From: a virus
DNA: 41,505 bases
Direction: 5' to 3' (one strand)
IMG/VR virus record: IMGVR_UViG_3300044712_001036
Coordinates: 1 to 41,505 of that record
Every line of letters starts with the position of its first letter. The first letter of the stretch is position 1. Shown piece by piece: positions 2,594 through 41,505 of the stretch. The position numbers and the translations under genes were made by a program. The notes beneath the pieces were generated by a model. The model ran no database searches. It worked only from the letters and a program-made list of their open reading frames with translations, and was not told the origin of the DNA.

Positions 2594-3607
2594 ATGAGCA
2601 GTATCTACGAGAAACGAGGGTGGTGGTATTACCAGTGGAGGGAAGGCGGAGATACCAAAGTCCGGGCCCTTCGCACACAGAATAAAACCTTGGCCGAGCA
2701 GGTTCAGAAACAATGGGACGCAAAGCGGGAACTGTTCGCCCACGGGATCACGCCTCAGAAGATCGACTTCCAGACGGCGATCGAGAAATTCCTCCTTCAC
2801 AAGGCAACGCAGCTGAAGGAGCGGTCCCGCCTGTTATACGTCAGCCAGCTCCGGACCCTTCACGCCGGCCTGGGGGTGAAACACGTTGGGGAAATTTCCT
2901 CAGACAAGGTATCGGCGTTCGTTGCAGCCAGGCAAAAGGCAGGGGTCACCAACAAAACAATCACCGATGAGCTGATCCTTCTCCGAGGATTATTCAAGTA
3001 TCTGCTGAAGGAGGGTCTGATCAAGGAGGTTCCCGTCAGATCCTGGCCGACGCTAAAGATTTTCACGAAGGACCCGGAGCGGATCGGATTCTATACCCAG
3101 GAAGAGATCAAACAGTTGAAATGGTATTTCCATGGGCATCCGTTCCAGGGCCCGTTTCTTTTCACGCTTTACACCGGCGTCCGACGATCAGAGATACGCC
3201 TCGCCCGCCGGCGAGACATTAACCTGGACAAGAACCTGGTCGGGTGTCGATCGGTAAAAACCGAGGGCCACGGGGAGCAGATCCGATATATCCCGATGCA
3301 CCCGGAGCTGAGAAAACTCCTGTCCGCCTATGCTGGAAAGGGAAAACCGGATGACTTCCTCTTCCCGGAACTGTTCGATCACTCGCGGAACTGGCCGCAT
3401 GAGTGCATGAAAGAAGCCTGCAAAAAATTGGAGATCACCTATCGCAGGTTCCACGGACTGAGGCATACCGTTGCAACGTTCCTTCTCGATTCCGGGATGA
3501 GCCTCAGAGACCTCATGGAGATCATGGGCTGGACCACGCTGGAGACCGCACAGAAATACATCCACTTCGCCCGGGCCGCGGGAAAGAAAATGACCCTCCC
3601 GTATTGA
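2594..3607 (+). CDS. int: Tyrosine integrase
   Basis: The 337-residue protein is a site-specific tyrosine recombinase. An N-terminal arm-binding-like segment (SIYEKRGWWYYQW) is followed by a SAM-like core-binding domain (about 57-150) and the catalytic domain (about 165-330). Catalytic residues are visible: Arg197 in TGVRRSEI, Lys222, His287 and Arg290 in HGLRH, Trp313 in MGWTT, and nucleophile Tyr322 in QKYIHF. It should insert the phage DNA into the host chromosome. The ATG at 2594 follows AAAGGACG. It converges with the end of the late operon, separated by a terminator for the minus strand. Confidence 0.95.
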   Translation: MSSIYEKRGWWYYQWREGGDTKVRALRTQNKTLAEQVQKQWDAKRELFAHGITPQKIDFQTAIEKFLLHKATQLKERSRLLYVSQLRTLHAGLGVKHVGEISSDKVSAFVAARQKAGVTNKTITDELILLRGLFKYLLKEGLIKEVPVRSWPTLKIFTKDPERIGFYTQEEIKQLKWYFHGHPFQGPFLFTLYTGVRRSEIRLARRRDINLDKNLVGCRSVKTEGHGEQIRYIPMHPELRKLLSAYAGKGKPDDFLFPELFDHSRNWPHECMKEACKKLEITYRRFHGLRHTVATFLLDSGMSLRDLMEIMGWTTLETAQKYIHFARAAGKKMTLPY

Positions 3608-3723: not shown

Positions 3724-6700
3724 CTATTTCTTTTTCGACTCCTCATGGAGCTGGTCCAGCTTGTCATAGATCAACGACCCCTGGCGGGCTGTCTCGCTTC
3801 TGAGGATATACATTTTCTGAATCTCGTTCGCCTTTTGTTTGGGGTCCATTTTTTTGTCATCGGTCAGTTGCTGGATCCGTTCGCTGATTTGCCCCAGGGC
3901 TTTGTTGACTTCGGTCAGTTTGGCATATACGCCGGACGCCTGTTTCTGTTTCGCCTCGTCAGCCTGGCCATGCTCGAAATAATACTTCATGGTTTCATAC
4001 TTCCGAGAGGCATCGTTGAACTGATTCCGGAACCGCTTCACCATCTCCGACCGCTGGAACGCAGGATAGGCGAAACCCTTCACGCCTGGAATGTCCTGGT
4101 TCTGGGCTTCCGGTTTGTTGGTTTTCGGGAGAATCCCCAGGGCTTCACCGGCCGCATCGACGGCACCGATACCATGGGCAAACATTCCGCCGCCGAACCC
4201 GCGGCCGTAATTGTCCAGCACGGTCGGAGCAACGCCGATCTTTTTCCCTATGGCCTTCGCGGTCCCAGAGGTTTTCGGTCCGAATTGTAATTCTGGTTCC
4301 AACTTCATCTGATTATCCGGGATCAGATCCTGACCGGTCCACATGGATTTATTGAGGATATGCTCCGCGATCGGCGCCGCGGAAGTCGGGATAACGTTGG
4401 GCATAAACGCCGCCTTCAGGGAATCGCCGAAATCATCGAAAGCGTGTTTGTCTTTGAGGTAGTATTTATTAACGCAGCGCTCGACCAGGCTGGAGAACAG
4501 CAGCCCCAATTCCCGGGGCTTGGGAATCCGATAGACTGAGTTTTTCACCAGGGCGGCCTTCTGGTCCAGGGTGAGTTTATCCCATTCCGCCCGAGTGATC
4601 GACGGCCCGGAAATATGAATCCAGTGGGTGTCTTTCACAATCTGTTCCACGTCCTGATACCGCGGATCATCCTTGTTCGCCATCCACGCGTAAAGGGTGG
4701 GCATCACCAGGTAAGCCATCGCCCGGGCTGTCATCTGCACGGGGTCACGCCGGAAGGAATCCACGGATCCGTTGATGAACTTATCAATACCCTGGACCGC
4801 GGCATTTTGGAAGGCGATCATCCGGTTTAAGTTCTGGGTAACCGCCCCCATCCTGGCGAAATCCAGAGACACATCACGCGAGGCGAGACCCGCCTCCATG
4901 GCACCAGCCTTTCCGGGTTTCTCTTTCTGCAAACCCAGGGTAAATTCTCCGACCCTGGTCACCTGTTCCGAAAACTTTGACATCAGCTCGAGGGTTTTGA
5001 TGGGTGAGGTGATGAGGTTCGTGAACCTGGCCAGCCCCTTGGGATTCTCAAGGACCCGTTGCAATTCACCTTGCAGACCTTCCCGGTTCAACGCCACCAG
5101 CTCAGCACCAGCCCCGCCCGAAGCCATCCATTTCCAGTATGTTTCAGACCGCCGGCCAGTGTTTGAGATCCCATGGAAAACAGCCCGAAGCACATCGACC
5201 ACCGGGACGGCCTGGTATCTCGAGAACAGCGCAGACGAAAGCGTATCCATCACGATATTCCTGGCCGTGAATTCCGGGGTCAGGGTGGCGCCGGCCCGCA
5301 GCCACGCGGCAGGCTTGGCCATCAGCTGAATCCAAAGCGGAGCGGTCTCACGATCCAAAGACTTGAGAACGTTCTCGATCTCCGGATGAACCTGGTAGAG
5401 TTTCTGTTGTCCGCCATCGAATACCGAGATCACGCCCTTCTGGGGAGTGTTCCCCTTCCGGAAAACCATGAACATTTTATCCTGCAGCGACTGAGGCAGA
5501 GCGTTGAAATGGGACAGTTCCGCGGGGGTCATCTGTCTCCGGATCTCATCCAGGGAAAACTGAATCGCCTTCTGTTGGTCAGGAATTTCCGCAACGTATT
5601 TTCCCATCCCGCCGGACTTCCTGGCCAGATTAACCAGGGCCTGGCCAACCGCGTTACGTTCGGCCGCCTGGATGAAAGCGTAGGTGTTCTTGATCACGCT
5701 CTCGAGCGGATCAATAATGTCCCTGGTGGACCCCTTCATTTTCTTGACCGGAGAGTTTTTAACCTCGAACCCTGAGCCGGATCCGGACCCGCCGCCGATC
5801 GTGAGATCACCTTCGCCAGGTTCGCCCATGATCCGATAGAACGGAATATAGTCCTGGTTCTTCGATCGGATCAGAGCCCGGTCCGCAGAGGAAAGGATCC
5901 CGCCATCAACCAGATACTGCATCACCTGGTCCTGGTATTTGTAGAGATCCTGGGCCACGTCCGAGAATTTTCGATCGTTGCCGTTACGATCTTTCCCGAT
6001 CACCTGGTCATCGAAGCGCTTCATTGTCTCGAGCGCATCCTCGATTTTGATTCCGGTATCAACGTCCTTGCCGCGGGGCCCCTGCTGAAAATACTTTTCC
6101 TTCGCCCGCCTGGCCACCAGATACGCCCGCAAATCCATCAGGCGATTCCCGGCCGGCTCGAGGATTTCCCGGAGCCCCTTCCCGGAAAACTTCAGGGTGT
6201 CATAATCAAACGGCTTGTGATCGATAAACGCCGCGGCCTTGCCCATCGCCCCGGAAAACAGGCGGGCGATCTTGTAGGGGCTCAGGTATGCCGGCAGGAG
6301 TTTCCCGCCGTTCATTTCCATTTCCACTTTCCGGAGGGGTTCGAGCCGATCAACCACGGTCTTGTAAAGGTCCCCGAAATTCCCGGACAGCTTCCGGTAT
6401 TTTTCCAAGAGGGTGGGGGCCCCGGGCACGTCGATATTACTGATCACGCGCATCACCGGATCCTGGCGGAAATAGTTCTCGATCTCTCCGCGGATCGTGT
6501 TCATTGCGGTGTTCATTTCCTTGTTTGCAGCCAGGCGCTTCTGGAATTCAACGAGGAATCCGGGAGCCTTCTGAGCGGCCTTGATTGGGTCGGTCAGGTA
6601 ATACCGGGCGAATTCCGCCAGCCCTTCCTGGAGGGTGGGTTTCCCGCCCTTGCCAGGTGAAGAGATCGGAAGCAGTTCCCCGGAGAACGGGGCCAGCGTT

Positions 6701-9648
6701 GCATCATTCCAGCCCATCAGCACGGAGAGATGATGCCCCAATTCGTGGGAGCCGACTTCAATATCCTTGCCGTCACGGAGCCGGATCAGTTGCTCCTTGG
6801 TGTTATATGTTCCCAGGACATTCTGGGGGGCCTTCATTTTCCCCTGGCGGATCGGAAGAAGAGCCTGGAATAACTCCATAATTTTGGAGCGCTTCACGGG
6901 CGCCTTGATGGTGGGGTCAACGGTGTCCTGGGTCATGTCCCGGCGATCGATCCGGCCGGTGGATTGGTCGAAGTTTTGGATGCCGTCAGAGGGTTCAGCG
7001 GACCGGGCAGACCCGGTAGACCCAGCGGGCTCAGCAGAATTCTGAGGCGATACCGGACCATCCTGAAACGCGGCTATTGCCCCATCCTGAGCAGCCGGCG
7101 CGAACCTATCACGCGGATCCGCGTCCACCTTCTCGATGGCATGTTTCAGGAGCAGCGCCTTGTCAGGGGCTTCAGCAGGTCCGAACAGGGTGGGCTGTCT
7201 GGGATCACCAGCCCCGCGAAGCAAATCGTTGTATTCCTTCACCAGGTTCGCAATCTTATTCGGGAACCGTTTATTCTGGTCCAGGAACCGGAGGAACGTT
7301 TTCCCCGCCTCGCTCATGCCGTCCGGGATCAGTTGCCCCTGAGCCAGGTATCCATCAACAGTTTCCTTCTGGCGCCTCAGCTCAGATAGTTTATTCGCAG
7401 CCTCCGAGATTTCCCCGGAGATACCCGCATCGAACAGGGCCCCGTCAGCAATATCCCGGTTGACCTTCGCCGTGTCCGGAGCAGCACGAAGCAGACCGTT
7501 GAGAACATTCTTCACATTCGCGTCCGGATCCTCAGCCAGGGTTCCGACCGCCTTGGGGTCACCATACGCCCAGGCAAACAGAGCATTTTTCACGCGGGCC
7601 AGGCCGGTCTGGGAGATTTCCCCGGTGGGTGTCATGTTCTGGCCCATTTCCTCAGCGCTCGAGGTCCGCCGGAAAAACTCCCGGAAGAATCCAGCGTTGC
7701 CGGCCGTGTTCAGGTTCCCGTCCTCAGAGACATTCAACGCCCCCAGGATTTCCGGGACCGCGCCGGCGTCCTTCATGGCCTGTTCCGTTGCCGACATGGC
7801 CAGCTGGCTCCGCTGGTTCGCCTGGTCAGCAAACGCCATACGATCAGCCGGCGACAGTTCGGCCGTCCGTTCCCGGACCAGCATGGGTTTCTTCATTCCC
7901 TGAATTGCAGCAGGATCAAGGCCAAACTTCTGAGCGTTGTCCAGGAGATACTGCCGGTATCCTTCGCCGTTGCCGGCATCGTAGGCCATTCTCAGCCCGA
8001 TGGTTCTACCATTGCCAGACTCGACCAGGCCATCCGGTCCGATCACCGGGGCCCCGTCCGAAGCCTTCACGAAATCCGTAATCAGTTCCTCGGCTCGAGG
8101 GCCCTGAGCAATACTGTTTATCTGATCAACGCTTGCCGCCCTGGTTCTGTCCCGACCCTGGAGAATATCAACCGGATACCCTTCCTGGTTCGATGTCAAC
8201 ACCTGGTCAGCATCGACCACGCGGAACCGGACCGGAACCGCCATACCCTTCGCGGTGACAGCTTTGCTTTCGATCCCGACCTGGCCAGGGAGAGCTTCGG
8301 TCATCACGCCAGCCGGCTGGACAGGCAGCACCGAGGGAGCCGGAGGGGTGAAATCGATCCCCGACATGGGCCCGGGTTTTGCCGGCTCAGCAGGAGCAAC
8401 CGGAGCAGGATCCGCAACAGGTTCAGCCACAGGAGCCAGATCGTTGCCGACAAATTCCGGAAGGTTTGCAACGAACGACTTCGCCGCATCCGCCGGCATG
8501 GCAGGAACACCAGCCAGGCGATCACGCGCCGCCATACCTTCAGACATTCCGCCATGAGCCCCGAGAGCCAGACCTTGAAATGCAGCCGGCGCACCACCTT
8601 CAACCAGGGCCTTCACGGGATCAATCTCTTGTGTCGGATCAACCGACTTCACAGCCGCCTGGGTCATCAGATCCGCAGCGGTCCCGGTGGCGCCCATCTT
8701 CGCAGCCTCGCGGGCCGCACCTTCAACGGTCATTCCGGCAATCTGAGCAATGCGCCCCCAGTTCCCACGCTGAGCCATGCCGGTCAGGATATTCTGAGCC
8801 GCCTCTTGAGAAGCGCCCCCGCCCATGATCCGCTGCAACGCACCAGACCAGAGCAGAGCCTCAGCAGAGCCAGCAACCAGGGACGTTGCCGGGGAAAACT
8901 GTCCGGTTTTTTGCTCAATCAAATCGCTGGTTTTCGTCACCGATCCGGGAGCCATCACCAGGGCAGGGCCGGCCACCTCAGCCAGCTTTTCCGCAGCCCC
9001 GAGAGCTTTCATTCCGCCCGTTGCCGCGCCCATCATGGCCAGGTCCGGGGCCATCTCGACAGCCGCATCAGTTCCCTGAAGGACATTCATCGGCAACGAG
9101 TCAACGCCGATCCCGGTATCACTCACGGAAGGAGTCCCCGGGGGCAGAGCTATATCAATCGCTTGCTGATCAATCGCCGCCGCCTGGTCCAGAGCCTGGC
9201 CAGACTTTTCCCAATCCTGATTCCCGGTCAACCCCCCATACGTCCGCTCGAGGAATCCGCCCACCTTCTTCACCAGGGGCAGGGTTTTCAGGGCGCCGCG
9301 TTGAATTGCATTGACCCCATACTCGAGAACGTTCGAGGGACCAGGATCGACCAGGAGGGCCCGCTCAGGATTCTCAAAATCCAGGCCGAAATTCCCAGAG
9401 GGCTGGTTGTCCGCCTCATTCTGAGCAGCCCGGAAATTCTTGGCCGTTGCCATGTTCCGATCGATCTCGGAATGGCCGCCGACCAGCTGAGTTTTTTCCT
9501 CCGGGTTCAGGGCGTCCCAATCGTTATACGCCCCGCGCATGGTCTGGTCCAGCACGTCGGGGTTTTCCGGGAGCAGGCGGACGAATTCATCTTGTTCGTC
9601 CGGAGTCAGATCGGGGTGAACAGCGGCAACGATTTTCTTCAGACTCAC
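3724..9648 (-). CDS. Giant polyvalent ejection protein (ParB-like, zincin, LPD38)
   Basis: The 1974-residue protein is the last gene of the late operon, where short-tailed phages keep the large internal protein ejected with the DNA. Visible parts: Ala/Gly-rich hydrophobic segments (about 200-370); a Pro/Ala linker (405-445); a DdrB-like ParB-superfamily domain (about 465-640, with SGNGRTIGL at 544-552 and an LVRER strand); a metallopeptidase motif HELGH at 968-972 with downstream EGLAE (Glu1008, Glu1012) as a third ligand candidate; a Gly/Ser linker near 1286-1293; an LPD38-like region (about 1435-1680); and a Lys/Gln-rich helical tail. Polyvalent proteins are thought to enter the host with the genome and counter defences or prepare the cell. 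The start is GTG at 9648 behind AGGGGG, since no ATG has a better site. Confidence 0.8.
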   Translation of the reverse strand: MSLKKIVAAVHPDLTPDEQDEFVRLLPENPDVLDQTMRGAYNDWDALNPEEKTQLVGGHSEIDRNMATAKNFRAAQNEADNQPSGNFGLDFENPERALLVDPGPSNVLEYGVNAIQRGALKTLPLVKKVGGFLERTYGGLTGNQDWEKSGQALDQAAAIDQQAIDIALPPGTPSVSDTGIGVDSLPMNVLQGTDAAVEMAPDLAMMGAATGGMKALGAAEKLAEVAGPALVMAPGSVTKTSDLIEQKTGQFSPATSLVAGSAEALLWSGALQRIMGGGASQEAAQNILTGMAQRGNWGRIAQIAGMTVEGAAREAAKMGATGTAADLMTQAAVKSVDPTQEIDPVKALVEGGAPAAFQGLALGAHGGMSEGMAARDRLAGVPAMPADAAKSFVANLPEFVGNDLAPVAEPVADPAPVAPAEPAKPGPMSGIDFTPPAPSVLPVQPAGVMTEALPGQVGIESKAVTAKGMAVPVRFRVVDADQVLTSNQEGYPVDILQGRDRTRAASVDQINSIAQGPRAEELITDFVKASDGAPVIGPDGLVESGNGRTIGLRMAYDAGNGEGYRQYLLDNAQKFGLDPAAIQGMKKPMLVRERTAELSPADRMAFADQANQRSQLAMSATEQAMKDAGAVPEILGALNVSEDGNLNTAGNAGFFREFFRRTSSAEEMGQNMTPTGEISQTGLARVKNALFAWAYGDPKAVGTLAEDPDANVKNVLNGLLRAAPDTAKVNRDIADGALFDAGISGEISEAANKLSELRRQKETVDGYLAQGQLIPDGMSEAGKTFLRFLDQNKRFPNKIANLVKEYNDLLRGAGDPRQPTLFGPAEAPDKALLLKHAIEKVDADPRDRFAPAAQDGAIAAFQDGPVSPQNSAEPAGSTGSARSAEPSDGIQNFDQSTGRIDRRDMTQDTVDPTIKAPVKRSKIMELFQALLPIRQGKMKAPQNVLGTYNTKEQLIRLRDGKDIEVGSHELGHHLSVLMGWNDATLAPFSGELLPISSPGKGGKPTLQEGLAEFARYYLTDPIKAAQKAPGFLVEFQKRLAANKEMNTAMNTIRGEIENYFRQDPVMRVISNIDVPGAPTLLEKYRKLSGNFGDLYKTVVDRLEPLRKVEMEMNGGKLLPAYLSPYKIARLFSGAMGKAAAFIDHKPFDYDTLKFSGKGLREILEPAGNRLMDLRAYLVARRAKEKYFQQGPRGKDVDTGIKIEDALETMKRFDDQVIGKDRNGNDRKFSDVAQDLYKYQDQVMQYLVDGGILSSADRALIRSKNQDYIPFYRIMGEPGEGDLTIGGGSGSGSGFEVKNSPVKKMKGSTRDIIDPLESVIKNTYAFIQAAERNAVGQALVNLARKSGGMGKYVAEIPDQQKAIQFSLDEIRRQMTPAELSHFNALPQSLQDKMFMVFRKGNTPQKGVISVFDGGQQKLYQVHPEIENVLKSLDRETAPLWIQLMAKPAAWLRAGATLTPEFTARNIVMDTLSSALFSRYQAVPVVDVLRAVFHGISNTGRRSETYWKWMASGGAGAELVALNREGLQGELQRVLENPKGLARFTNLITSPIKTLELMSKFSEQVTRVGEFTLGLQKEKPGKAGAMEAGLASRDVSLDFARMGAVTQNLNRMIAFQNAAVQGIDKFINGSVDSFRRDPVQMTARAMAYLVMPTLYAWMANKDDPRYQDVEQIVKDTHWIHISGPSITRAEWDKLTLDQKAALVKNSVYRIPKPRELGLLFSSLVERCVNKYYLKDKHAFDDFGDSLKAAFMPNVIPTSAAPIAEHILNKSMWTGQDLIPDNQMKLEPELQFGPKTSGTAKAIGKKIGVAPTVLDNYGRGFGGGMFAHGIGAVDAAGEALGILPKTNKPEAQNQDIPGVKGFAYPAFQRSEMVKRFRNQFNDASRKYETMKYYFEHGQADEAKQKQASGVYAKLTEVNKALGQISERIQQLTDDKKMDPKQKANEIQKMYILRSETARQGSLIYDKLDQLHEESKKK

Positions 9649-9658
9649 AGGGGCCCCC

Positions 9659-10792
9659 TTATTTTTTCTTCTTCGCCTTCATCGCTTCAAGAGCAGCCTT
9701 CCCGGAACCCATGGGAGCAGCAGCGGCCGGAGCCTTCGGAGCGGAACCGCCCAGGCCACCATAGGAATGGTCGATCGAATTCCCGCCGGCGCCGCCACCA
9801 GGCAACCGCTTATTCACGAACTGGGAGAGGACCATCTTCGTTGAAACGTAATCCGGATCTTGTTCCATCTGATCGGCCAGGGCGTTCAGGGTGGCCGCCT
9901 GGTCGGGCATCATGGTTTCGCCGGCCTTCTTGCGGAGAGCCGCAATGTTGCCTTCCTGTTTCTTCACCAGGTCCGCATAGATCCGCATTTCCTTGATCGA
10001 ATCGCCGGAGCCCGATCCGCCAGACCCGCCCCCATGGTTGGGAGCAAAGGGGGCCGTGAAGATCGGTTTCTTCGTTGTCGGATCGAGCAGGATCGTGCCC
10101 GGTCCCACCTGGATCGGCTTCTGTTCACCCTTGATAATTTCCTTCGCGTCCAGGGTTTCAGGATTCACAGCCATCACGGACCCGCCCGGGCCTTCCTGGA
10201 ACGCATACTTAACCGGGGGCTTCAGCTCCGCGCCCGTGGTCTGGCCGCCAAACTCAGCCGATACGACCGGGTTGGAATTCACAATTTTCGCCGCCTGGTC
10301 ATACATGCCCCGCTTGATCAAACCTTCCACCGGCTTCATCGCGTAATCCTCGATCTTCGCCGCCTCATCCATGCGGCCTTGTCCACGCAACGTGTCCACC
10401 TGGGCTTTCTGGGTGACGCCGGTCGGGACCGTGGTCGGGATGACACCAGGGATTCCAGCGACAGCAGACGCCAACGGGGCCAGGGTGCCGAACGTTGTAT
10501 TGATACTGTTCCCAACGTCCCCGACAACCTGTTCCTGCATCACGTCCCGCTTCTTCTGGTTCATGTCCATCATGGTTTTCTGGCGGGCGAGATCGTTCGT
10601 TGCCTTCTGATCCTGGACCCGCTGTTCTTCCAGCTTGAACTGCCGATCTGCGTCCTGCTTCTTCCGGCGCTGATCCGCGATCTTCAGGAGAGCGTCAGCC
10701 CATCCCCCGGTATTCCCGTAAGCAGCAGCCAGCGGAGCCACGTCGATCGTCGGACGAGCCGGCGCATACAGATCATTGATACTCAGTCCCAT
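9659..10792 (-). CDS. Internal virion / ejection protein (377 aa)
   Basis: The protein has a charged helical segment (about 40-95, rich in Lys, Arg, Gln, Asp), a small Ala/Gly/Pro hydrophobic part (about 100-130), then a segment rich in Pro and Gly ending in Gly/Ser linkers (near 255) and a poly-Lys tail. I recognise no catalytic motif. Length, composition and its place directly upstream of the giant ejection protein, only 10 bases away, fit a partner internal virion protein of the T7 gp15 or P22 gp20 kind. That is a context call, not homology I can name. The ATG follows GGAGG at five bases. Confidence 0.6.
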   Translation of the reverse strand: MGLSINDLYAPARPTIDVAPLAAAYGNTGGWADALLKIADQRRKKQDADRQFKLEEQRVQDQKATNDLARQKTMMDMNQKKRDVMQEQVVGDVGNSINTTFGTLAPLASAVAGIPGVIPTTVPTGVTQKAQVDTLRGQGRMDEAAKIEDYAMKPVEGLIKRGMYDQAAKIVNSNPVVSAEFGGQTTGAELKPPVKYAFQEGPGGSVMAVNPETLDAKEIIKGEQKPIQVGPGTILLDPTTKKPIFTAPFAPNHGGGSGGSGSGDSIKEMRIYADLVKKQEGNIAALRKKAGETMMPDQAATLNALADQMEQDPDYVSTKMVLSQFVNKRLPGGGAGGNSIDHSYGGLGGSAPKAPAAAAPMGSGKAALEAMKAKKKK

Positions 10793-10804
10793 GACGGACC
10801 TCCT

Positions 10805-10948
10805 TCAGAATTTCCATTCAACGCCCCAGGAAGGTTTTTCCCCGCGGGCGATCTTCAGCCTGGCCAGAGCGGCACCCAATTTAATGCCCACCTGGCTTTC
10901 CGCGGCCCCGATACTTACCGAGATACCGGGGCGGACGGAGGGTTTTTT
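10805..10948 (-). other. Candidate -1 frameshift extension of the holin-like gene
   Basis: The sequence A AAA AAC (10948-10942) lies in the phase required for -1 slippage within the holin-like frame (GTA AAA AAC). After a -1 shift the frame stays open for 45 codons to a TGA at 10807-10805, directly before the ribosome site of the next gene. The extension ends KPSWGVEWKF and contains LGAALARLKIAR, which looks coding. Without a shift the normal frame stops at 10915 and this stretch would be empty. The alternatives are an indel in the A6 run, either real or a sequencing error. Confidence 0.55.
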
Positions 10949-11316
10949 ACAGCATCAGGGAGGACCGGAATCAGACCAGCCTGGCCGGCCTTCCCGCGGG
11001 CATCCCAGTAATACGCCAGCAGGCGGGTGACCGCCTCGGTCTTCTTTCCGGCCGTATACAACTCTTCAACCTGGCGGGTGAGTTTCAGAAGTTCGTCCAG
11101 CTTCGTTGCCCCGTCCCATCCCTTGATAGAGCCCAACCATTCCACGGCCTTGAAGCCCAGGTCAGCAACATTCTGGACGGTCGGGGCGTATTCATCTTCC
11201 CAGGTCTTTGCCGGGTCAGCCTTCGCCCGGGCGTTGATATAATACGCGGCCGCATGGAGAACCAGGGCCAAGCCAACCAGCAGATAAGGGGAAACCTCGA
11301 TCAGTTTCATCAACAT
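10915..11316 (-). CDS. Holin-like membrane protein
   Basis: The 133-residue protein has one N-terminal membrane segment (about residues 6-26, SPYLLVGLALVLHAAAYYIN) followed by a soluble part with TWEDEYAPTVQNVADLG and a helical Lys/Glu segment. The ATG at 11316 was chosen because AAGGAG lies seven bases upstream; it begins two bases after the endolysin stop. Membrane anchoring and position next to an M15 endolysin suggest a holin or lysis accessory protein, though no known holin family is recognised. Near the C terminus it carries an A AAA AAC heptamer that could give a 170-residue longer form (see 10805-10948). Confidence 0.6.
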   Translation of the reverse strand: MLMKLIEVSPYLLVGLALVLHAAAYYINARAKADPAKTWEDEYAPTVQNVADLGFKAVEWLGSIKGWDGATKLDELLKLTRQVEELYTAGKKTEAVTRLLAYYWDARGKAGQAGLIPVLPDAVKNPPSAPVSR

Positions 11317-11318
11317 AA

Positions 11319-11741
11319 TTACGCTCCTTTGATATTCAAGTTTGCGGCATTCAGGGCGATATAAACCCCGCGCCGTTGCATCCAAAAAGCCCTTGGCTCT
11401 CCGGTGGCCAGGTCACGCCGATCGACGTGGATCCCCGGATTATGCCAATCAGGATAAACGCCGATCCCATGGAAACCGAACCGGGCAGCAGCGAAGAACG
11501 CATCCAGCGCAGACATGCCAGGGACGTGGAGATCAACGGCCAGCCCCCGGTAGTGAGCTGAGCCCTCGACGTGATTCCCCTGGGTCCCGCAATGGATGAC
11601 CACGGACCGGCCTAGGAATTTCCGGAAAAGAACCAGCTCCCGGATCAGAGCCGGGTCCATCCGGTCAGGATCCCCCCAGGGTTCCGTTGCCTTGAAACCT
11701 TCAACGGTGGACCAGTCGATATGTTGTTGGATGGGAAGCAT
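11319..11741 (-). CDS. M15-family peptidase endolysin
   Basis: The 140-residue protein carries the zinc peptidase signature of M15A D-Ala-D-Ala carboxypeptidases and L-Ala-D-Glu endolysins. His63 and Asp70 are in SAHYRGLAVD, and His105 with Asp107 are in GIHVD, preceded by GIGVYPDWHNP. It would cut the peptide stems of peptidoglycan at the end of infection. No signal peptide or membrane segment is seen, so release depends on a holin. It sits between two small membrane-protein genes and the holin-like gene, a normal lysis cassette. The ATG lies after a weak GGGGG site and one base after the stop of the upstream gene. Confidence 0.88.
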   Translation of the reverse strand: MLPIQQHIDWSTVEGFKATEPWGDPDRMDPALIRELVLFRKFLGRSVVIHCGTQGNHVEGSAHYRGLAVDLHVPGMSALDAFFAAARFGFHGIGVYPDWHNPGIHVDRRDLATGEPRAFWMQRRGVYIALNAANLNIKGA

Positions 11742-11742
11742 G

Positions 11743-12012
11743 TTAAACCCCCAGGTGCAGCAGTCTCAGGATCGGGTCCTTAAACGTGATCAGCAGGCCG
11801 AACGCCCCGGACGCAACGCCGAATATGATCCCCCATCGGGTAATGGTTTTCTCCAGACTCGCCACCGTGGCCGTCAGTGTCAGCATGTTTTCCTTCATGT
11901 CTTGCGCCTCCTGTCTTGCGTGCTTGCTGTCTGATACCGCCACGGCAAGATCACGCTCCAAATCCGAAACACGCTTCAATAACGCATCGTGAAACCCGCA
12001 TTGATCGCCCAT
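11743..12012 (-). CDS. Coiled-coil membrane protein (XhlA-like)
   Basis: The 89-residue protein has a long charged helix with heptad character (about 8-55, containing LLKRVSDLERDLAVAV), then one membrane segment (about 60-78, WGIIFGVASGAFGLLITF). This layout resembles hemolysin XhlA and related lysis-associated proteins. The ATG at 12012 was chosen over a longer N-terminal reading because it begins one base after the stop of the upstream small gene, and GGAGG is about 14 bases upstream, a rather long spacing. It lies directly before the endolysin. Function as a holin partner is inferred. Confidence 0.7.
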   Translation of the reverse strand: MGDQCGFHDALLKRVSDLERDLAVAVSDSKHARQEAQDMKENMLTLTATVASLEKTITRWGIIFGVASGAFGLLITFKDPILRLLHLGV

Positions 12013-12013
12013 G

Positions 12014-12178
12014 TTAGTATTTGACACCTCCGGCAAGCGATACCAGAAAATCACCCCAGCAGTCCGCAGACCACGACCAGAACAGCGAACCGGCATTGAC
12101 CACCAGATCGAACGCGATGAAAAGAAGAATGAAAACGATTACCTCCAGGAGCAGGAATCGGTAATGGGCGCGGCGCAT
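12014..12178 (-). CDS. Small membrane protein, possible holin
   Basis: The 54-residue protein MRRAHYRFLLLEVIVFILLF... has one strong membrane segment (about 8-30) after a positively charged head, and a Trp-rich tail. Its ATG shares one base with the TGA of the upstream LamG gene (TGATG), so translation is probably coupled. It is the first of several lysis-type genes. Size and topology fit a one-helix pinholin or a lysis regulator, but no family is recognised. Confidence 0.65.
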   Translation of the reverse strand: MRRAHYRFLLLEVIVFILLFIAFDLVVNAGSLFWSWSADCWGDFLVSLAGGVKY

Positions 12179-13629
12179 CAGGGGATATCCCTTCCAACCC
12201 AGGCGGGGCCGTTCACCAGAAGCGACGATACGGCCTCCTGCCCCATATTTGCGAGTGAAGTTCCGGCGCCTTCTGACCCTCGGAAATAGGAGCAAAGGCC
12301 GCTCTCGTTGCCGATGAGTTGGGTATACATATTCGCCTGGATTTCCGCACCGGTCCTTGCCGTATTCCAAAGCCTGACTTCGGCAACCTTGCCATACCCG
12401 TAATACGTGGTTGAGCATCGAATCGCGCCGATTCCAAGGCGGTTGTAGTCGGGGCTGAACGCCTTGGTGCTGCTGTCCGTGGCAACGTTGACCCCGTTGA
12501 CATAGAGAAGGGCTTGTGCCGCAGATGCGACCATAGCGACGTGAACCCACTGGCCTATGACGTTAGCGTTTCCAATGGTGTATTCAACGGGAGTTGAATT
12601 GCGGTTGAACGTGACCTTGTAGGTGCCTGCATTATTGTATGTGCCGATGTAAGCGTAGGCGCTGGCAGATGACGACGATGCCAAGGAAATCGGATAACAT
12701 TCTTTTCCGGCAGTCAGCGACGGAGTGAAAACCCAGGCTTCCATCGTGTAGGGATATGTCGATACCAAAGTATTGGTGCCGCTTCCAATATCGTCTCCTC
12801 CGTCGAAACTCAGGCAATACCGCTGACTTCGAATATCCCCGGCAGGGTAACCATTGCGACGGGTCCAGGTTATGGTGTTTGTTGCTGTCAAATTGCAGCG
12901 ATTTTGCGAATCGTCTCGCATTTCCTGCGAATTGTCGTTGCCGTGTGCCAAAAAAACCAATCCAGGCTCTGTTCCCTTCAGTCGTTTTGGCATATATTTT
13001 TTGATCTCGTCCGGCGGTAGGTCTCGATTCCAGTAGGACACCTCGGCGATTTGGGAATTGCTAAAAGTGCTTGCCCCAAATGCGCCAAGGTAGATAGTGC
13101 TGGAGGCAAGAGCAGATGTTGCCGATGCCGAGGTGGTAACGGCTTTTGATTCCCCGTTGACGTAGGCCTTTGTATTGCTGATGTCCCCCCCTGAATAGGT
13201 TACTGCGATGTGCGTCCAGGATCCTACGGGCGGGGTAAACGCCGGGTTGCACTGAGCATATGACCCGTAAAAATTGATGGTGAGCTTTTGACTTGTGCTG
13301 AAACCAACGGAAAAAATCTTGCTGGTTGCTGCGAGTCCAGTATAAAACCAGTAACCATTAGCAGACGAATTCAGCAGTTTTACCCAAAGCATGACCGTTC
13401 TTGGACTATCAAGCCGAGGATAATTTGCCGCTGCAACCGCGGTCCTTGAAAATTGATTCACCCCGTTAAAAATCGGCGCCCAATCGCTGTTGAGCCAGGA
13501 GGGTAGCGTCGTCTGGCTGCATCCAACCATCGGCGACGGGAACCCGGAAAGATATCCGGGCAGCGTCCCCGGAGCCTGGGCGAACGCGACCCCGGCGACC
13601 AGGACCAGGAGGCAGAGAAATTTCTTCAT
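12178..13629 (-). CDS. Secreted protein with two LamG-type lectin domains
   Basis: The 483-residue protein begins with a clear Sec signal peptide (MKKFLCLLVLVAGVAFA, cleavage after Ala17). Two concanavalin/LamG-like jelly rolls follow, at about 51-205 and 270-425. Both show the family pattern: a Phe-Asn/Asp-Gly start, then (M)LWV or MEAWV, GSWTHIAV or GQWVHVAM, a short YVNG, and VSYWNRDL or VRLWNTART near the end. These domains bind sugars or mediate adhesion. A signal peptide is unexpected for a virion protein, yet the gene sits in the late block between ejection and lysis genes. It may be exported during infection or lie on the virion after use of the Sec route. The ATG follows GGAGA. Confidence 0.8.
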   Translation of the reverse strand: MKKFLCLLVLVAGVAFAQAPGTLPGYLSGFPSPMVGCSQTTLPSWLNSDWAPIFNGVNQFSRTAVAAANYPRLDSPRTVMLWVKLLNSSANGYWFYTGLAATSKIFSVGFSTSQKLTINFYGSYAQCNPAFTPPVGSWTHIAVTYSGGDISNTKAYVNGESKAVTTSASATSALASSTIYLGAFGASTFSNSQIAEVSYWNRDLPPDEIKKYMPKRLKGTEPGLVFLAHGNDNSQEMRDDSQNRCNLTATNTITWTRRNGYPAGDIRSQRYCLSFDGGDDIGSGTNTLVSTYPYTMEAWVFTPSLTAGKECYPISLASSSSASAYAYIGTYNNAGTYKVTFNRNSTPVEYTIGNANVIGQWVHVAMVASAAQALLYVNGVNVATDSSTKAFSPDYNRLGIGAIRCSTTYYGYGKVAEVRLWNTARTGAEIQANMYTQLIGNESGLCSYFRGSEGAGTSLANMGQEAVSSLLVNGPAWVGRDIP

Positions 13630-13632
13630 CTG

Positions 13633-14106
13633 CTATCTCCAGCCAGAAAACACATTCAGGATCATGCTACAGGTTGCAGCCGATTGGGCGATCCAGGAGA
13701 GCTCCGCGCCGGTCCCCCCGTAAACGATTGGAAAGGGAGAGTTGTCCCCGTTGCCCATGGCGTTCCCCGAAGCCTGGACGGTGGCGGATGACAGGGCAGC
13801 AGACCCCCACTTAAGGGAGCCGCCGGCCTGCCACGTGAAAACATCACCCTGGGTCAGACTGGCAACCGATGACAGCTTCGTGACCGTGTTGGTGGCGAGG
13901 TTAACCACGTAACTGGTCATGGTGGCGACCTGCCAAGGGGCGGTTGTCCCGTAGGATGTTACCCGAAACGGCCGCCAGATTCCGTTTGTATCGTCCCAGC
14001 CGAAAATGCAACCGTTCGGAGCCGTCATCAAATCGCGCTGAGGATACCCAAACGCCACCATTGCAACCGCCACCAAGACGAGAACAAAAACAAAATACTG
14101 TCTCAT
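13633..14106 (-). CDS. Secreted structural-like protein (157 aa)
   Basis: The protein starts with a hydrophobic export segment (MRQYFVFVLVLVAVAMVAFG) and continues as a beta-rich, Thr/Ser/Gly-rich protein. Phrases such as CIFGWDDTNGIWRPFRV and the GGTGAELSW near the end look like small phage fibre or appendage proteins. No lipobox is seen. The ATG at 14106 follows AGGAGG with an eight-base spacer. Its stop is three bases before the start of the LamG gene, so the two probably act together. No family name can be given. Confidence 0.7.
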   Translation of the reverse strand: MRQYFVFVLVLVAVAMVAFGYPQRDLMTAPNGCIFGWDDTNGIWRPFRVTSYGTTAPWQVATMTSYVVNLATNTVTKLSSVASLTQGDVFTWQAGGSLKWGSAALSSATVQASGNAMGNGDNSPFPIVYGGTGAELSWIAQSAATCSMILNVFSGWR

Positions 14107-15655: not shown

Positions 15656-15659
15656 ATTT

Positions 15660-15938
15660 TTACCTCATTAAAGAAAGAATTTTTAACAGCTCATCCTGGC
15701 TCACGGCCTGGCTTTTCCCGGACATAAACGCCAACATAATCCACAGGTTTTTATTCTCGTTCTGCAGATCAACGATCAGCCCCGCGGCCGTTGTTCTCCA
15801 TGATTCCAGAGCAGACACGCGAGTTGTCAGGCTGGTAAGATCAACGCCTGATTCATTAGCTTTGTCGGCAAGAGCTTGTTCCCATCGGTCTTGCTCATAC
15901 TGATTCTTTGTCCGGGGCTTCATTATTTTAGTTGCCAA
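15660..15938 (-). CDS. Small helical protein, possible trimerising appendage part (92 aa)
   Basis: The protein has a charged N terminus (KPRTKNQYEQDRWEQAL), a heptad-like stretch (VDLTSLTTRVSALESWRTT) typical of phage trimeric coiled coils, and an amphipathic end. The start chosen is TTG at 15938, which has GAGG nine bases upstream and overlaps the end of the upstream gene. The alternative ATG at 15923 lacks a good site. It lies among tail genes; function unknown. Confidence 0.6.
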   Translation of the reverse strand: MATKIMKPRTKNQYEQDRWEQALADKANESGVDLTSLTTRVSALESWRTTAAGLIVDLQNENKNLWIMLAFMSGKSQAVSQDELLKILSLMR

Positions 15939-16137
15939 GATCGGTTACCTCGATTTCCATTCCGGTCACCACGACCTGGACCGGAGCTTCAACCACAATT
16001 TCAATCTGTCTGGAGCGAAACAAGCCAGACGACGGGAGCTTGATGACGGGATTTTTCCCAGAGGAAATATCGAACTTCCGAGGGACGGACCAGTTTCCGT
16101 TGTCATCGCAAAACCGCAACACCAGAAAGTCAGCCAT
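15928..16137 (-). CDS. Small beta-rich protein (69 aa)
   Basis: A short protein of alternating strands (FLVLRFCDDNGNWSVPRKFDI, then IEIVVEAPVQVVVTGMEIEV). The ATG follows GGAGG at nine bases, and the stop overlaps the next gene by 11 bases. I do not recognise it. The context of tailspike and small virion genes suggests a minor structural protein. Confidence 0.65.
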   Translation of the reverse strand: MADFLVLRFCDDNGNWSVPRKFDISSGKNPVIKLPSSGLFRSRQIEIVVEAPVQVVVTGMEIEVTDLGN

Positions 16138-16143
16138 GTATTG

Positions 16144-16368
16144 TTACCTCCAGGTGAACAGATCCCGAGGGATCGGATGGGGGAATCGATAGTGGTCATC
16201 CGGCAGCAGTTCGCCCGTGCCGATCGGGTCCGGAGTCAAGCGAGGCTTCACCCGGAACCAGATCCGCCGGGTGTCTTCGTCCAGGGATTCAACCTCTTCC
16301 CCGCCGACAACCCGGACAGCCCGGACCAGAGCCACGAAAGGAACGTCAGTCAGAAACGGGTTTCCCAC
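16144..16368 (-). CDS. Small hypothetical protein (74 aa), GTG start
   Basis: The protein has an Asp/Glu- and Pro-rich sequence with VRVVGGEEVESLDEDTRRIWFRV in the middle. The start is GTG at 16368, preceded by GGAGG at seven bases, and overlaps the end of the tailspike gene by 23 bases. The good site and tight packing support a real gene. No domain is recognised. Confidence 0.6.
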   Translation of the reverse strand: MGNPFLTDVPFVALVRAVRVVGGEEVESLDEDTRRIWFRVKPRLTPDPIGTGELLPDDHYRFPHPIPRDLFTWR

Positions 16369-19252
16369 GGATTTGCCTCCAAATGTTCGAGCGGAACGGA
16401 CCGGCCGCGGACGTGATTTCGTCGTTGGCCTGGGGATCGTTGAGCAGGATATTGCTTGTCCAGCACAACCAGCCCCGAGAGCGGCACTCGTCGTATATTT
16501 CCTGTTTCAGAGCGGTGTCCGAGTTCAGGCAGTAATTCAACGCCAGCACATCAAATACGGCCGTCCGGCGCAGTTCTTTCAGGTCTTCCGTGATTTGATT
16601 GTTCCACTCAATATCAGCTTCATTCGTGATCAGCGAGTATTCCCCGGTCTCCCAGTTGTAATCACTGAGAAAGGTCTCGAACATGACATACTCACAGCAA
16701 TCAATAATGTCCGGGAGCATTGAGAATCCGCGGTTCGCAACGAAAATCTTGTCGGGATAGAGCCCCTTCAGATACCGGATATTGTCGATCATTCCTTGCT
16801 TGTAGGTATCCGACTGATAAACGTCGATCGTTCCAATAACGTCCATGAAGATCCCGTCAGCCTGGAGCCCTCGCGTTGTGTAGGAAAAATACAGAGTATG
16901 GCCGGCGGCTGGAGTCGGCCCGCCAAAGGAAAGCGACGGATGAATGATCACATATCCCAGGTGACAATCGATCGAATAATCGGCTTCAGCGGCAAACTCG
17001 TTGCCCAGGGAATCCACCAGTAGCATGGGCTCATCTTCATCAAGCGGCGGGTCCGCTTCCGGAACCAGGAACCCCAGGGCCGTGCCGGAAGTCGTGGTCA
17101 CCTCGATCAGGGTCACCGGAACACGGACCTTTTCAACGCCAGGCTCAAACGCTATACGAAGGTAATAATCCCGGAGCCTGTCCCTCCAGGTGGAGTCAGT
17201 CGAATCCGTGAAGAACGAACCCCAGATACCGTTCTCATCGGGATAGTCCACGTCAGTCAGAGAAAAATCCTGAAGCCAGTTCGTTCCCTTCTCATACTCA
17301 GGGCATCCGGCGTTGAGAGGATCATAGTCCGGACATGACGAATTCAAGCACCCGTTCAGACTGTCCCGATTCCAGTATGTTAATTTTGTATGACCGGCCC
17401 CGCACTCCCCGCCGGCCCGCTTGGTTTTGTATCCGGTCCGCCAATCATTCCCGCAGCACGGACCACACCGACCGACACCAGCACGATACCGATAATTGCT
17501 TTTCGCGCAAGCCTTCACGCCTTCGAGCCGTTGACGATCGAAGACACATTCATTGCACTCGCCGGCAGCCTGGCCGCCCTTCATGTAATACCCGGCATAT
17601 CCCCCGGGCCCGGTGCCGTCACCTGTCCAGGGGGCTTTCCCGGAAGCGGCATTAAACAGGGTTTTCAGCGTTCCATTCTCTTCCCCGAACGAGGTATAGA
17701 CAATGACCTGGATTCCCATGCTCTGCAAAAACGCCACGTCCTGGCGGGTAACACCCATCGCATCGACGATCACAATGTCATAATCGCGGAGTATGTCCAA
17801 CATCCCGGTGGAGTAATAAACCGCGAAGGTGGGGAACCGGCAATAGGTCCTCACTTCCGTGATTCCGGTGTTGGACCGCGGGAGCGTCAGGTCTTCCTGG
17901 GTGGCGATCGGGAGGTCAAAAACAATATCCCCATTTTCCAGCGCAGGATTATCAGGAGCAAACGGAGGAACCGCCCGGACGTTGAAATCACAGGTCAGAA
18001 CCTCAGAGACCTCAGAGTATTTTGAAACGCTGGTATAAATCACTCGATACCAGGGCGCAGCATGGGCTTCTTTATTCCGCAGCTCGAGGGAGTGAGTTCC
18101 GGATCCGAGACCAGTGATATGGTGCTCGAGATAGAACCCGCCCCCGTCCTCATCGTGACAGTCCAGCGTTGTGATGAAGGACCCATCCGAATAAACATCC
18201 AGCTTCCCCCAGCCGTAATCATGCTGGATGGTCACCCAAATTTCATCACCTTCAACGGTCATCGCCGCCTTGTCCCCGATCGTTTCCGAGAACGCCCGCG
18301 GGAGAGTAACACCATACTGGGTTCCGCCGGAATCGGTCAGGTCTCCGGTTGCCGTGTCCCTGGTCCAATCCGATCCGGTATAGGTGACATTCACCAGGTC
18401 ACTGGCCAGCAACGGAATGTTATCGGTATACTCGATCAGCCCCAAGGGGTCAGGATATTCGGCCGTTACCGATACTTCAACAGCATTTAGCCCACTGGCG
18501 AATCCCGACAGATCGGGAGAGAAATCACAGGAAAAACTTGCACCAGGAGCCAGGGTTGCCTGGGTAACAGTTCCGAGCGCAACGCCGGCCAGGTCCTTCA
18601 GGAGCGCATCGAATTCAACGGAGATATTCCGGAAAACGCTGGTGGAATAGTTGCAGAATTCCAGGGCAAAAATGTTGTTGTCTTCCGTGTTTGCGGGTAA
18701 TTGCCAGCCGGCAAACTCGAGGGTGAAGGACGGTTCCCGCTCCTTCCATCCAGCGATCGGACAGAATCCGGTGATCGGGTCCGCGGGCTCATTATAAAAA
18801 ATCTCACAGGTATGGGTTGTGTCCGCCAGGTTATCGACAATCAATACATCAAAGTATTGACCGCCATGCCCGACCGTTGTCGTATCGTGACACACCGTGT
18901 CCTGGGCGCCAGTGGCGCCGACAATAGTGGACGGTAGAACTCCATCGATCCGAATATCTCCGGTTCCCCATTCCCAGTTTGCCATGATTCTGAGGATCAA
19001 CGTAGGACCGGTGAACGTGAAGGACGCCTTGCCCTGGTGGCAAACGTTCCGGGGTTCTTTCCGGGCGGCCGGCGTCGTTGCGTCACCGTCATCCTTCCAC
19101 CAAATCCCCTGGACAACCTCACCGTCAGGCATCAGGAAGTTGTCATCGAAAACCATTTCCTCGATCGGATGAAACCGCAATCTTCCGTTGACGCGGTTTT
19201 GCCCGTAATAAACCTCAGAGGAAAGGACCTGGATCCTGTCTGAGTATTTCAT
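16346..19252 (-). CDS. Tailspike-like protein with GH114-type hydrolase domain
   Basis: The 968-residue protein has beta-sandwich modules in the N-terminal half (about 75-155, 190-290 CARDB-like, and 330-395), then a TIM-barrel type domain split by an insertion. Barrel signatures match GH114 endo-alpha-1,4-polygalactosaminidase and TM1410-like proteins: YDIVIVDAMGV (Asp497), GIQVIVYTSFGE, ADGIFMDVIGT (Asp804), YPDKIFVANRGFSMLPD and VMFETFLSDYN (Glu859). Between the halves, residues 566-650 hold ten Cys residues with CxxC and CxxCC pairs, possibly a disulfide or metal knot. The place directly after the gp10-like connector gene is that of a tailspike, so the enzyme probably degrades a galactosamine-containing surface polysaccharide of the host. 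The ATG is two bases beyond the upstream stop. Confidence 0.8.
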   Translation of the reverse strand: MKYSDRIQVLSSEVYYGQNRVNGRLRFHPIEEMVFDDNFLMPDGEVVQGIWWKDDGDATTPAARKEPRNVCHQGKASFTFTGPTLILRIMANWEWGTGDIRIDGVLPSTIVGATGAQDTVCHDTTTVGHGGQYFDVLIVDNLADTTHTCEIFYNEPADPITGFCPIAGWKEREPSFTLEFAGWQLPANTEDNNIFALEFCNYSTSVFRNISVEFDALLKDLAGVALGTVTQATLAPGASFSCDFSPDLSGFASGLNAVEVSVTAEYPDPLGLIEYTDNIPLLASDLVNVTYTGSDWTRDTATGDLTDSGGTQYGVTLPRAFSETIGDKAAMTVEGDEIWVTIQHDYGWGKLDVYSDGSFITTLDCHDEDGGGFYLEHHITGLGSGTHSLELRNKEAHAAPWYRVIYTSVSKYSEVSEVLTCDFNVRAVPPFAPDNPALENGDIVFDLPIATQEDLTLPRSNTGITEVRTYCRFPTFAVYYSTGMLDILRDYDIVIVDAMGVTRQDVAFLQSMGIQVIVYTSFGEENGTLKTLFNAASGKAPWTGDGTGPGGYAGYYMKGGQAAGECNECVFDRQRLEGVKACAKSNYRYRAGVGRCGPCCGNDWRTGYKTKRAGGECGAGHTKLTYWNRDSLNGCLNSSCPDYDPLNAGCPEYEKGTNWLQDFSLTDVDYPDENGIWGSFFTDSTDSTWRDRLRDYYLRIAFEPGVEKVRVPVTLIEVTTTSGTALGFLVPEADPPLDEDEPMLLVDSLGNEFAAEADYSIDCHLGYVIIHPSLSFGGPTPAAGHTLYFSYTTRGLQADGIFMDVIGTIDVYQSDTYKQGMIDNIRYLKGLYPDKIFVANRGFSMLPDIIDCCEYVMFETFLSDYNWETGEYSLITNEADIEWNNQITEDLKELRRTAVFDVLALNYCLNSDTALKQEIYDECRSRGWLCWTSNILLNDPQANDEITSAAGPFRSNIWRQIRGKPVSD

Positions 19253-29909: not shown

Positions 29910-30264
29910 CGGAAGGACCTCCTTTTATTTCACTTGCGATGTGCGAAGGGGCATATAGACCCCCGGTCCTCGACCGGGATCGGAGCGAGGGGACCCCCCC
30001 CAGGCCGGCGGGTCGGTCCGGTCGGGTCCGCCTCGAGAACCGCGGGGCCCTGGCGGTCGGGTCCGAGAATGTCACGGTTCGAGCCGTGCCCTTTCCGGGG
30101 CAGGTCACCGGGCCACCGAAAAACACCATGCCGTTGCCATGAAACGCTGGCGGATTCCGGTTTTGCCCAGGAAGGTTTACATAATTAAGAGTATCGGACG
30201 TCCCGGAAACGCTCATCAACACAGGGGCGAATTGATAACATTGTGACATTGTAGGAACGTGCAT
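29902..30264 (-). CDS. Doubtful ORF in a GC-rich region (120 aa)
   Basis: An open frame starts with an ATG that shares a base with the TGA of the TerS candidate and runs to the next gene. The sequence has little regularity, becomes Arg/Pro/Gly-rich, and no domain is recognised. The DNA here is unusually GC-rich with hairpins and repeats, so an open frame may be chance. Perfect packing between neighbours favours a gene, composition argues against. If it is not coding, 29924-30263 is a 340-base intergenic region next to the packaging genes. Confidence 0.3.
   Translation of the reverse strand: MHVPTMSQCYQFAPVLMSVSGTSDTLNYVNLPGQNRNPPAFHGNGMVFFGGPVTCPGKGTARTVTFSDPTARAPRFSRRTRPDRPAGLGGVPSLRSRSRTGGLYAPSHIASEIKGGPSVG
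29962..30088. repeat. GC-rich hairpins and 12-bp direct repeats near terS, pac candidate
   Basis: CGGTCGGGTCCG occurs at 30019-30030 and 30054-30065, 35 bp apart, with a partial copy GGTCGGTCCG at 30011-30020. A perfect 7-bp stem CCCGGTC/GACCGGG (29962-29978, loop CTC) lies at the left, and CACGGT/GCCGTG (30073-30088, one T-G pair) at the right. Terminase recognition sites usually lie in or near terS, so this is a pac candidate. tRNA-like reading of the GGTTCGAG was checked and does not fold. Confidence 0.45.
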
Positions 30265-30818
30265 CACTTTTCGCCTTTGGAGCGGGGCACCTTTGCACCT
30301 TCCGCCGGCTGAGAAATCGTAACGACCTCACCAGGTTCCGGGAGAGTGGCCGGCCGATCGGGCTGGTTCTTCTGGACCTCAATCACCTTCCCCGCGGGGC
30401 GGTCCGCCTGCATCTGCATGGAGATCAACGAGAAAACGTTGCTGGTAGACTCGCCATCAAGGAGTCGCTGCTTTTCAATGGCAATGCCCAGGCCGATCAT
30501 CAGGTCCTTGAAGTTTGCGGACTCGATTACGCCAGGTTCTTTCAGCTCAGCCAGAATAGATGAGCTGATCAACACAAGATCGGAAGAGGTTTTCTTTTTA
30601 AGTTCGTTCGCCGTTGCCTCTTCCATCTCATCCAGGCCGCTATCCAGGACCCCTTTAACTCCGACATGAGAAACCCCGAGCTTCTTGGCAATCGCCCGTA
30701 AAGACATTCCCTGGTCTCTCATCACCTTGGCCATGACTTTCTTGAAGGCAGGGATTTTATGGTCTGGTCTGTTTACCTGCTTCTTGTTGGGATCGGGAGG
30801 AAGTTTCTTCCTTGGCAT
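30264..30818 (-). CDS. Terminase small subunit candidate
   Basis: The 184-residue protein has a basic head, a helix-turn-helix at about 38-58 (MSLRAIAKKLGVSHVGVKGVL), a helical middle (DEMEEATANELKKK, about 62-130) and an acidic/basic tail. This HTH-plus-helical-oligomerisation layout, a few genes before terL, is that of small terminase subunits that recognise the packaging site. The ATG at 30818 was chosen over a longer reading because it starts two bases after the upstream stop, with GGAGG about 13 bases upstream. It could also be another DNA-binding regulator. Confidence 0.65.
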   Translation of the reverse strand: MPRKKLPPDPNKKQVNRPDHKIPAFKKVMAKVMRDQGMSLRAIAKKLGVSHVGVKGVLDSGLDEMEEATANELKKKTSSDLVLISSSILAELKEPGVIESANFKDLMIGLGIAIEKQRLLDGESTSNVFSLISMQMQADRPAGKVIEVQKNQPDRPATLPEPGEVVTISQPAEGAKVPRSKGEK

Positions 30819-30820
30819 GG

Positions 30821-31306
30821 TTACGCCGTCACCTCCTCGAGCCCGACACACTCTTTCTTCTCCCTGGCTTCCTTCTGGTCTCTTCTCACTTGTGCCTGAT
30901 ACTCCTTCCATGTCTTCCCGCCAAGGACACAGGCAGGGTAATCAGGGTTCACATAGCAGCAGTAAGCCATCAAAATCCCGTTGACCAGTTTGTCCCTGGT
31001 CGGCTCCTTCCCGTCCTTGGTAACGTAATCCTCGAGCAGAGAGTCCAAGCGCTTCCCAGCTTCTTCTGGTATCACTGGGATTAGTTCCAGACAGAGATCA
31101 GAGAGTTCTGTTGTCCCTGAGAGAATTTTGATGATTCCGGCCTTGTTTTCCCGCAACATGGCAACGACGTTGCCTGGTGGGACAGGTCGGAACCCCAGAG
31201 TAAAATCAGGTTCTTTTCCTTCAACCCACAGAGAGACACCAGAACGGTTACAGAAGAGTATGGTCTCTATGGGGGAGACTGGGGATTTGGTAGTCAATTC
31301 GGGCAT
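30821..31306 (-). CDS. Hypothetical protein after the primase (161 aa)
   Basis: The protein has an N-terminal strand-rich part (ETILFCNRSGVSLWVEG), then helices and a Cys-containing segment (MAYCCYVNPDYPACVLGG) before a basic Lys/Arg-rich tail. I see no nuclease or nucleotide-binding motif. The start lies two bases beyond the primase stop and the end two bases before the TerS candidate. It sits at the border between replication and packaging genes. No family is recognised. Confidence 0.65.
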   Translation of the reverse strand: MPELTTKSPVSPIETILFCNRSGVSLWVEGKEPDFTLGFRPVPPGNVVAMLRENKAGIIKILSGTTELSDLCLELIPVIPEEAGKRLDSLLEDYVTKDGKEPTRDKLVNGILMAYCCYVNPDYPACVLGGKTWKEYQAQVRRDQKEAREKKECVGLEEVTA

Positions 31307-41403: not shown

Positions 41404-41487
41404 GGTTTCCTCCTCATTCACTCGCCGGAGCCGGAGCCGGAGCCGGAGCCGTAGCCGTAGCCGGAGCCGGAGCCGGAGCCGTAGCCG
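41372..41487. repeat. Second copy of the terminal direct repeat
   Basis: Identical to bases 1-116. Beyond 41487 the hexamer order differs from the copy at 117 onward, which points to variation or collapse of the array rather than a simple end repeat. Confidence 0.9.
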
Positions 41488-41505
41488 GAGCCGGAGCCGT
41501 AGCCG
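41418..41505 (-). CDS. Partial second copy of the Gly-Tyr/Gly-Ser repeat gene
   Basis: The minus strand holds the stop (41420-41418), the closing Glu, and about 13 Gly-Ser/Gly-Tyr units before the window ends. Counted back from the stop, the first nine Gly-X units equal those of 47-301, then two Tyr units are replaced by Ser. The gene is cut by the window edge. Confidence 0.8.
   Translation of the reverse strand, partial: GYGSGSGYGSGSGSGYGYGSGSGSGSGE

Follow-up and report, generated by a model that had tools for sequence, protein, structure and literature searches.

Genomic context of the locus

The window, meaning the whole stretch of DNA analysed, is a complete IMG/VR viral record of 41,505 bp. 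The genome, from an uncultured phage, is podovirus-like; its integrase is encoded on the plus strand, its virion genes on the minus strand. A C-5 cytosine methyltransferase (33983-35158, minus), a Gp3-like recombination directionality factor (39976-41505, minus) and the integrase (2594-3607, plus) indicate that the phage is probably temperate. The features of the locus are collected in Table 1.

Table 1. Features of the candidate frameshift locus and its flanking genes
Feature	Coordinates	Strand	Description
54-aa membrane peptide	12014-12178		upstream of the 133-aa gene
XhlA-like gene (by appearance)	11743..12012	minus	coiled coil and C-terminal membrane helix; weak matches only; another holin candidate
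Endolysin-like gene (peptidase M15-type)	11319..11741	minus	PHROG 894 endolysin, E 9e-6; weak Peptidase_M15 matches below cut-off
Short-form gene (0-frame ORF)	11316 (ATG) to 10915	minus	133 aa; one predicted N-terminal membrane helix
Heptamer A_AAA_AAC	10948-10942	minus	X_XXY_YYZ phase; frame-0 reading GTA AAA AAC
-1 frame extension	10805..10948	minus	47 codons (KKPSVRPGISVSIGAAESQVGIKLGAALARLKIARGEKPSWGVEWKF) and TGA
Predicted hairpin	10905..10932	minus	10-bp stem, 10932-10923 paired with 10914-10905; 8-nt loop CTCGGTAA; candidate stimulator
Next gene downstream	9659..10792	minus	377-aa protein

The 133-aa ORF is preceded by a Shine-Dalgarno sequence (AAAGGAGCG) and begins 2 bp past the endolysin-like gene directly upstream of it. 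The original prediction called this gene holin-like, a label that we regard as a guess: searches of Pfam, PHROGs and NCBIfam at E values up to 1 gave no hit for the protein, described holin families included. Its predicted membrane helix spans residues 10-33, hydrophobic by sequence, in a low-confidence structure model (confidence 54). The gene's position and this predicted N-terminal helix would suit a holin-type or an inner-membrane-spanin-type (i-spanin) protein equally well, and the XhlA-like protein and the 54-aa membrane peptide are equally good holin candidates.

Several other features of the genome deserve mention. The 1974-aa virion-type protein encoded at 3724-9648 (minus) matches Pelagibacter and other podovirus proteins over its C-terminal 900 residues (25-33% identity, PHROG 9854), and its N-terminal half is poorly shared. 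A cysteine-rich 968-aa protein (16346-19252, minus; PHROG 37372) is present in Pseudomonas phage SCYZ1 and only two further viral contigs, from phages that are otherwise different. The adjacent genes at 12178-13629 and 13633-14106 (minus) both start with signal-peptide-like N-terminal sequences, which is unusual in structural or tail-region proteins of phages; the former matches virion-structural PHROGs. The gene list has a 690-bp gap at 15656-16345 (minus) in which two small ORFs, 15687-15923 and 16153-16344, show good codon usage and are probably genuine genes. Finally, ORFs 30264-30911 and 30821-31306 share 91 nt (30821-30911, minus); a start may be misplaced or the overlap may be real.

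Slippery heptamer and predicted downstream hairpin

The sequence A AAA AAC was reported to lie in exact slippery phase near the end of the gene, and it does so at 10948-10942, where frame 0 reads GTA AAA AAC. In the -1 frame no stop interrupts the stretch from TGA 10957-10955 to TGA 10807-10805, and the 0-frame stop is TAA 10917-10915. Both frames are open together, so that a shift could work, in a single zone of 14 codons, and the heptamer falls within it. In-phase A_AAA_AAN occurs three times in 12,094 codons, so that about 0.0035 would be expected by chance in this zone; A_AAA_AAC itself occurs once, at this site. The 30 nt 5' of the heptamer (TGGTCTGATTCCGGTCCTCCCTGATGCTGT) contain no Shine-Dalgarno-like stimulator, which counts against frameshifting, though such an element is optional and is missing from many known frameshift sites.

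AAC is a weak slip codon in bacteria, and A_AAA_AAC slips less well than A_AAA_AAG in E. coli (PMC5009743). The identical A6C heptamer nevertheless supports -1 frameshifting of about 2% in E. coli in the insertion sequence IS1 (PMC12428005), and for the g-t shift of HCTV-2, an archaeal virus, A_AAA_AAC is the listed heptamer (PMC5009743). These two cases make a low-rate shift plausible here, and a high rate less so.

The predicted hairpin holds the 0-frame TAA in its loop. Its 28 nt fold with -16 kcal/mol (z -4.1, with none of 200 shuffles as good), a value obtained for a window picked to fit the hairpin; wider folding windows give z scores of only -1.8 to -3.2, which counts against frameshifting. 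Compared with 6000 codon positions of the same genome, equal or better folding is found at 0.4% when 38 nt after a 6-nt spacer are considered, at 0.7% for the first 52 nt, and at 1.3% when the best spacing is allowed. The spacer between heptamer and hairpin is 9 nt, with an alternative pairing predicted to begin at 6 nt. Stimulatory structures usually start 5-8 nt downstream of the slip site (PMC4066793); a 9-nt spacer is slightly beyond this range and counts against frameshifting, yet it is close to the usual spacing. No complement of at least 4 bases to the loop is present downstream, and no simple pseudoknot was seen. No known RNA family was matched. A role as terminator was discarded: the hairpin is not in the output of the terminator scan and has no T-run.

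Coding signal of the extension

Counted from the heptamer the extension comprises 47 codons; 45 of these follow the two slipped lysines, in agreement with the 45 open codons originally claimed, and about 36 lie past the 0-frame stop. It was further proposed that the extension fills the gap to the next ribosome site. The Shine-Dalgarno sequence of the 377-aa gene (AAGGAGG) indeed starts at the TGA of the -1 frame, and the gap between the two genes shrinks from 122 bp to 12 bp when the extension is included; neighbouring gaps of the cassette measure at most 14 bp.

Codon usage was scored in sliding 90-nt windows with a model trained on 18 other genes of the window. Frame 0 is ahead by about 11-20 bits over nearly the whole gene, and the -1 frame leads from about 10940. 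Past the 0-frame stop the -1 segment averages 0.31 bits per codon, equal to the median for real genes, and +14.8 bits in total. An open frame that is equally gene-like turns up in just 0.03% of dinucleotide shuffles and in 0.14% of off-frame or antisense segments. The extension is thus more than chance and is gene-like (chance 0.0003-0.0014). Its sequence is basic, with a net charge of +6, and its hydrophobic moment is no better than that of shuffles, giving no sign of an amphipathic helix.

Homologue searches

No homologue of the 133-aa protein was detected in peptide scans of IMG/VR and GTDB, in phages and plasmids (tblastn), in the PDB (phmmer), or in 38 plus 10 distant viral records. Exact 8-residue matches are needed in the IMG/VR and GTDB scans, which therefore reach close relatives only. 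The absence of homologues from the collections searched, and hence of a conservation signal, counts against frameshifting. Among the IMG/VR records searched, which may lack near-identical ones, no near-identical sequence with a different A-run length was found. The 377-aa neighbour likewise has no homologue in the collections searched for it.

Relatives identified through the 1974-aa, 968-aa, capsid and terminase proteins have virion genes in common with this phage, at about 25-40% identity, and no counterpart of the 133-aa gene turned up in them. In the nearest relative found, the major head protein is 40% identical and the late genes are in a partly similar order; it too lacks a recognisable counterpart. 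One faint hit of the extension (E 9), in Pseudomonas phage Ep007, is located just past stop codons in a T7-like genome and was discounted as fortuitous.

Alternative explanations

We consider programmed -1 ribosomal frameshifting the best single explanation of the locus, with a probability of roughly 0.5, a figure that, like the other likelihoods expressed here, is a judgement from pieces of evidence and not a computed posterior. It is a good candidate for a known mechanism in an unusual gene. The frameshift claim has gained from the switch in codon usage near the heptamer and from the stable predicted hairpin near the usual spacing. It falls short of proof, and its main rival is the one named originally, a one-base indel in the A6 run. 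Such an indel could be a sequencing or assembly undercall or a recent real mutation, and the true or ancestral gene would then be a single frame of about 170 codons with nothing programmed. An indel would account for a coding switch within a homopolymer, for the gap being filled and for the gene-like codon usage of the extension. In a survey of prokaryotic frame transitions, most orphan singletons were put down to errors, indels or gene overlaps (PMC3711429), which favours this explanation and keeps the prior for programmed frameshifting low. What an indel leaves unpredicted is the hairpin, matched at 0.4-1.3% of positions, and it would give the slippery phase with a chance of just 1 in 3. Moreover, 22 other runs of at least 6 bases lie inside listed genes that remain open, a count that only bounds the error rate, since the gene list favours open genes. 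On balance we judge an indel somewhat improbable, and a competitor to be taken seriously.

The coding signal could also belong to a separate micro-ORF of 24-28 codons starting at TTG 10879 or GTG 10891, perhaps translated by reinitiation past the 0-frame stop, with the A-run incidental. This is possible because most of the signal (+11.9 of about 14.8 bits) falls after GTG 10891, and the Shine-Dalgarno pairing energies of -6.4 and -5.0 kcal/mol are within the range of real starts in the window. The start codons are rare and the product is very short, however; the seven codons from the stop to the GTG are coding-like as well (+2.9 bits), and a micro-ORF gives no reason for the heptamer and the hairpin. 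We regard it as unlikely. An extension that is non-coding spacer, open by accident, appears more doubtful still. About 39% of gap shuffles do keep the -1 frame open, and several other gaps of the window hold segments with positive coding scores, but openness combined with so gene-like a composition is as rare as given above, and the heptamer and hairpin would come on top of it. Transcriptional slippage, in which RNA polymerase would add one A to the run and normal translation would yield the long form, seems to us the least probable of all. Some slippage sites have a hairpin adjoining an A-run, a layout that is matched here. The run at this locus is 6 bases long, whereas slippage sites usually have homopolymers of at least 8 (PMC3711429) or 9 (PMC5009743).

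Comparison with known frameshift systems

One close parallel is the insA-insB' junction of IS1, where the identical AAAAAAC stands in equal phase towards the end of the first ORF and a longer fusion product is made; downstream RNA structure is proposed to help (PMC12428005), as the predicted hairpin might do here. IS1, however, encodes a repressor and a transposase and has a proposed pseudoknot, whereas the present candidate has a small predicted membrane protein and a simple predicted hairpin. The lambda-type tail assembly chaperones G and GT come from a dsDNA phage gene whose slippery heptamer is close to the 3' end, and the longer form is rare (PMC5009743). In contrast to G/GT, the gene here has no tape measure gene or chaperone after it and belongs to the lysis region of a podovirus-like genome. 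E. coli dnaX resembles the locus in its A-rich heptamer followed by a stem-loop (PMC5009743); it differs in having A_AAA_AAG and an upstream Shine-Dalgarno stimulator, and in that its shifted product is the shorter one.

Proposed mechanism and implications

If programmed -1 frameshifting operates at this locus, one start would give rise to two proteins. The majority of ribosomes would stay in frame 0 on AAA AAC and terminate 8 codons on, yielding the 133-aa short form. A minority would pause at the hairpin, with the 0-frame stop in its loop, and slip one base back on A_AAA_AAC. These ribosomes would continue in the -1 frame, swapping the short tail for a basic tail of about 47 residues, and the resulting long form of about 170 aa would end where the ribosome-binding site of the 377-aa gene lies. 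By analogy with IS1, the rate of slipping, if it occurs, would be no more than a few percent. The rare long form would tune the protein, provided that the latter acts on the envelope together with the neighbouring endolysin; we can at most infer a lysis-timing role for the two forms. The complete scheme, a lysis-region membrane protein with a common short and a rare long form made by -1 frameshifting on A_AAA_AAC with a stop-containing hairpin, in which the ratio of forms sets activity, is tentative and rather less probable than frameshifting as such.

To our knowledge, -1 frameshifting is established for few phage genes beyond tail assembly chaperones, a few capsid genes and insertion sequences. 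Among the titles and abstracts searched, which cover the literature in part, none has a programmed -1 shift in a holin or spanin of a DNA phage as its subject. Dual-start holins such as lambda S107/S105, two forms from one lysis-region gene, are alike in logic only, being two forms of one small membrane protein. Their difference is N-terminal and arises from two starts, whereas the candidate here would acquire a C-terminal tail by frameshifting, and the protein is a putative holin at most. If real, such a shift beside an endolysin would be a C-terminal counterpart of the dual-start holins.
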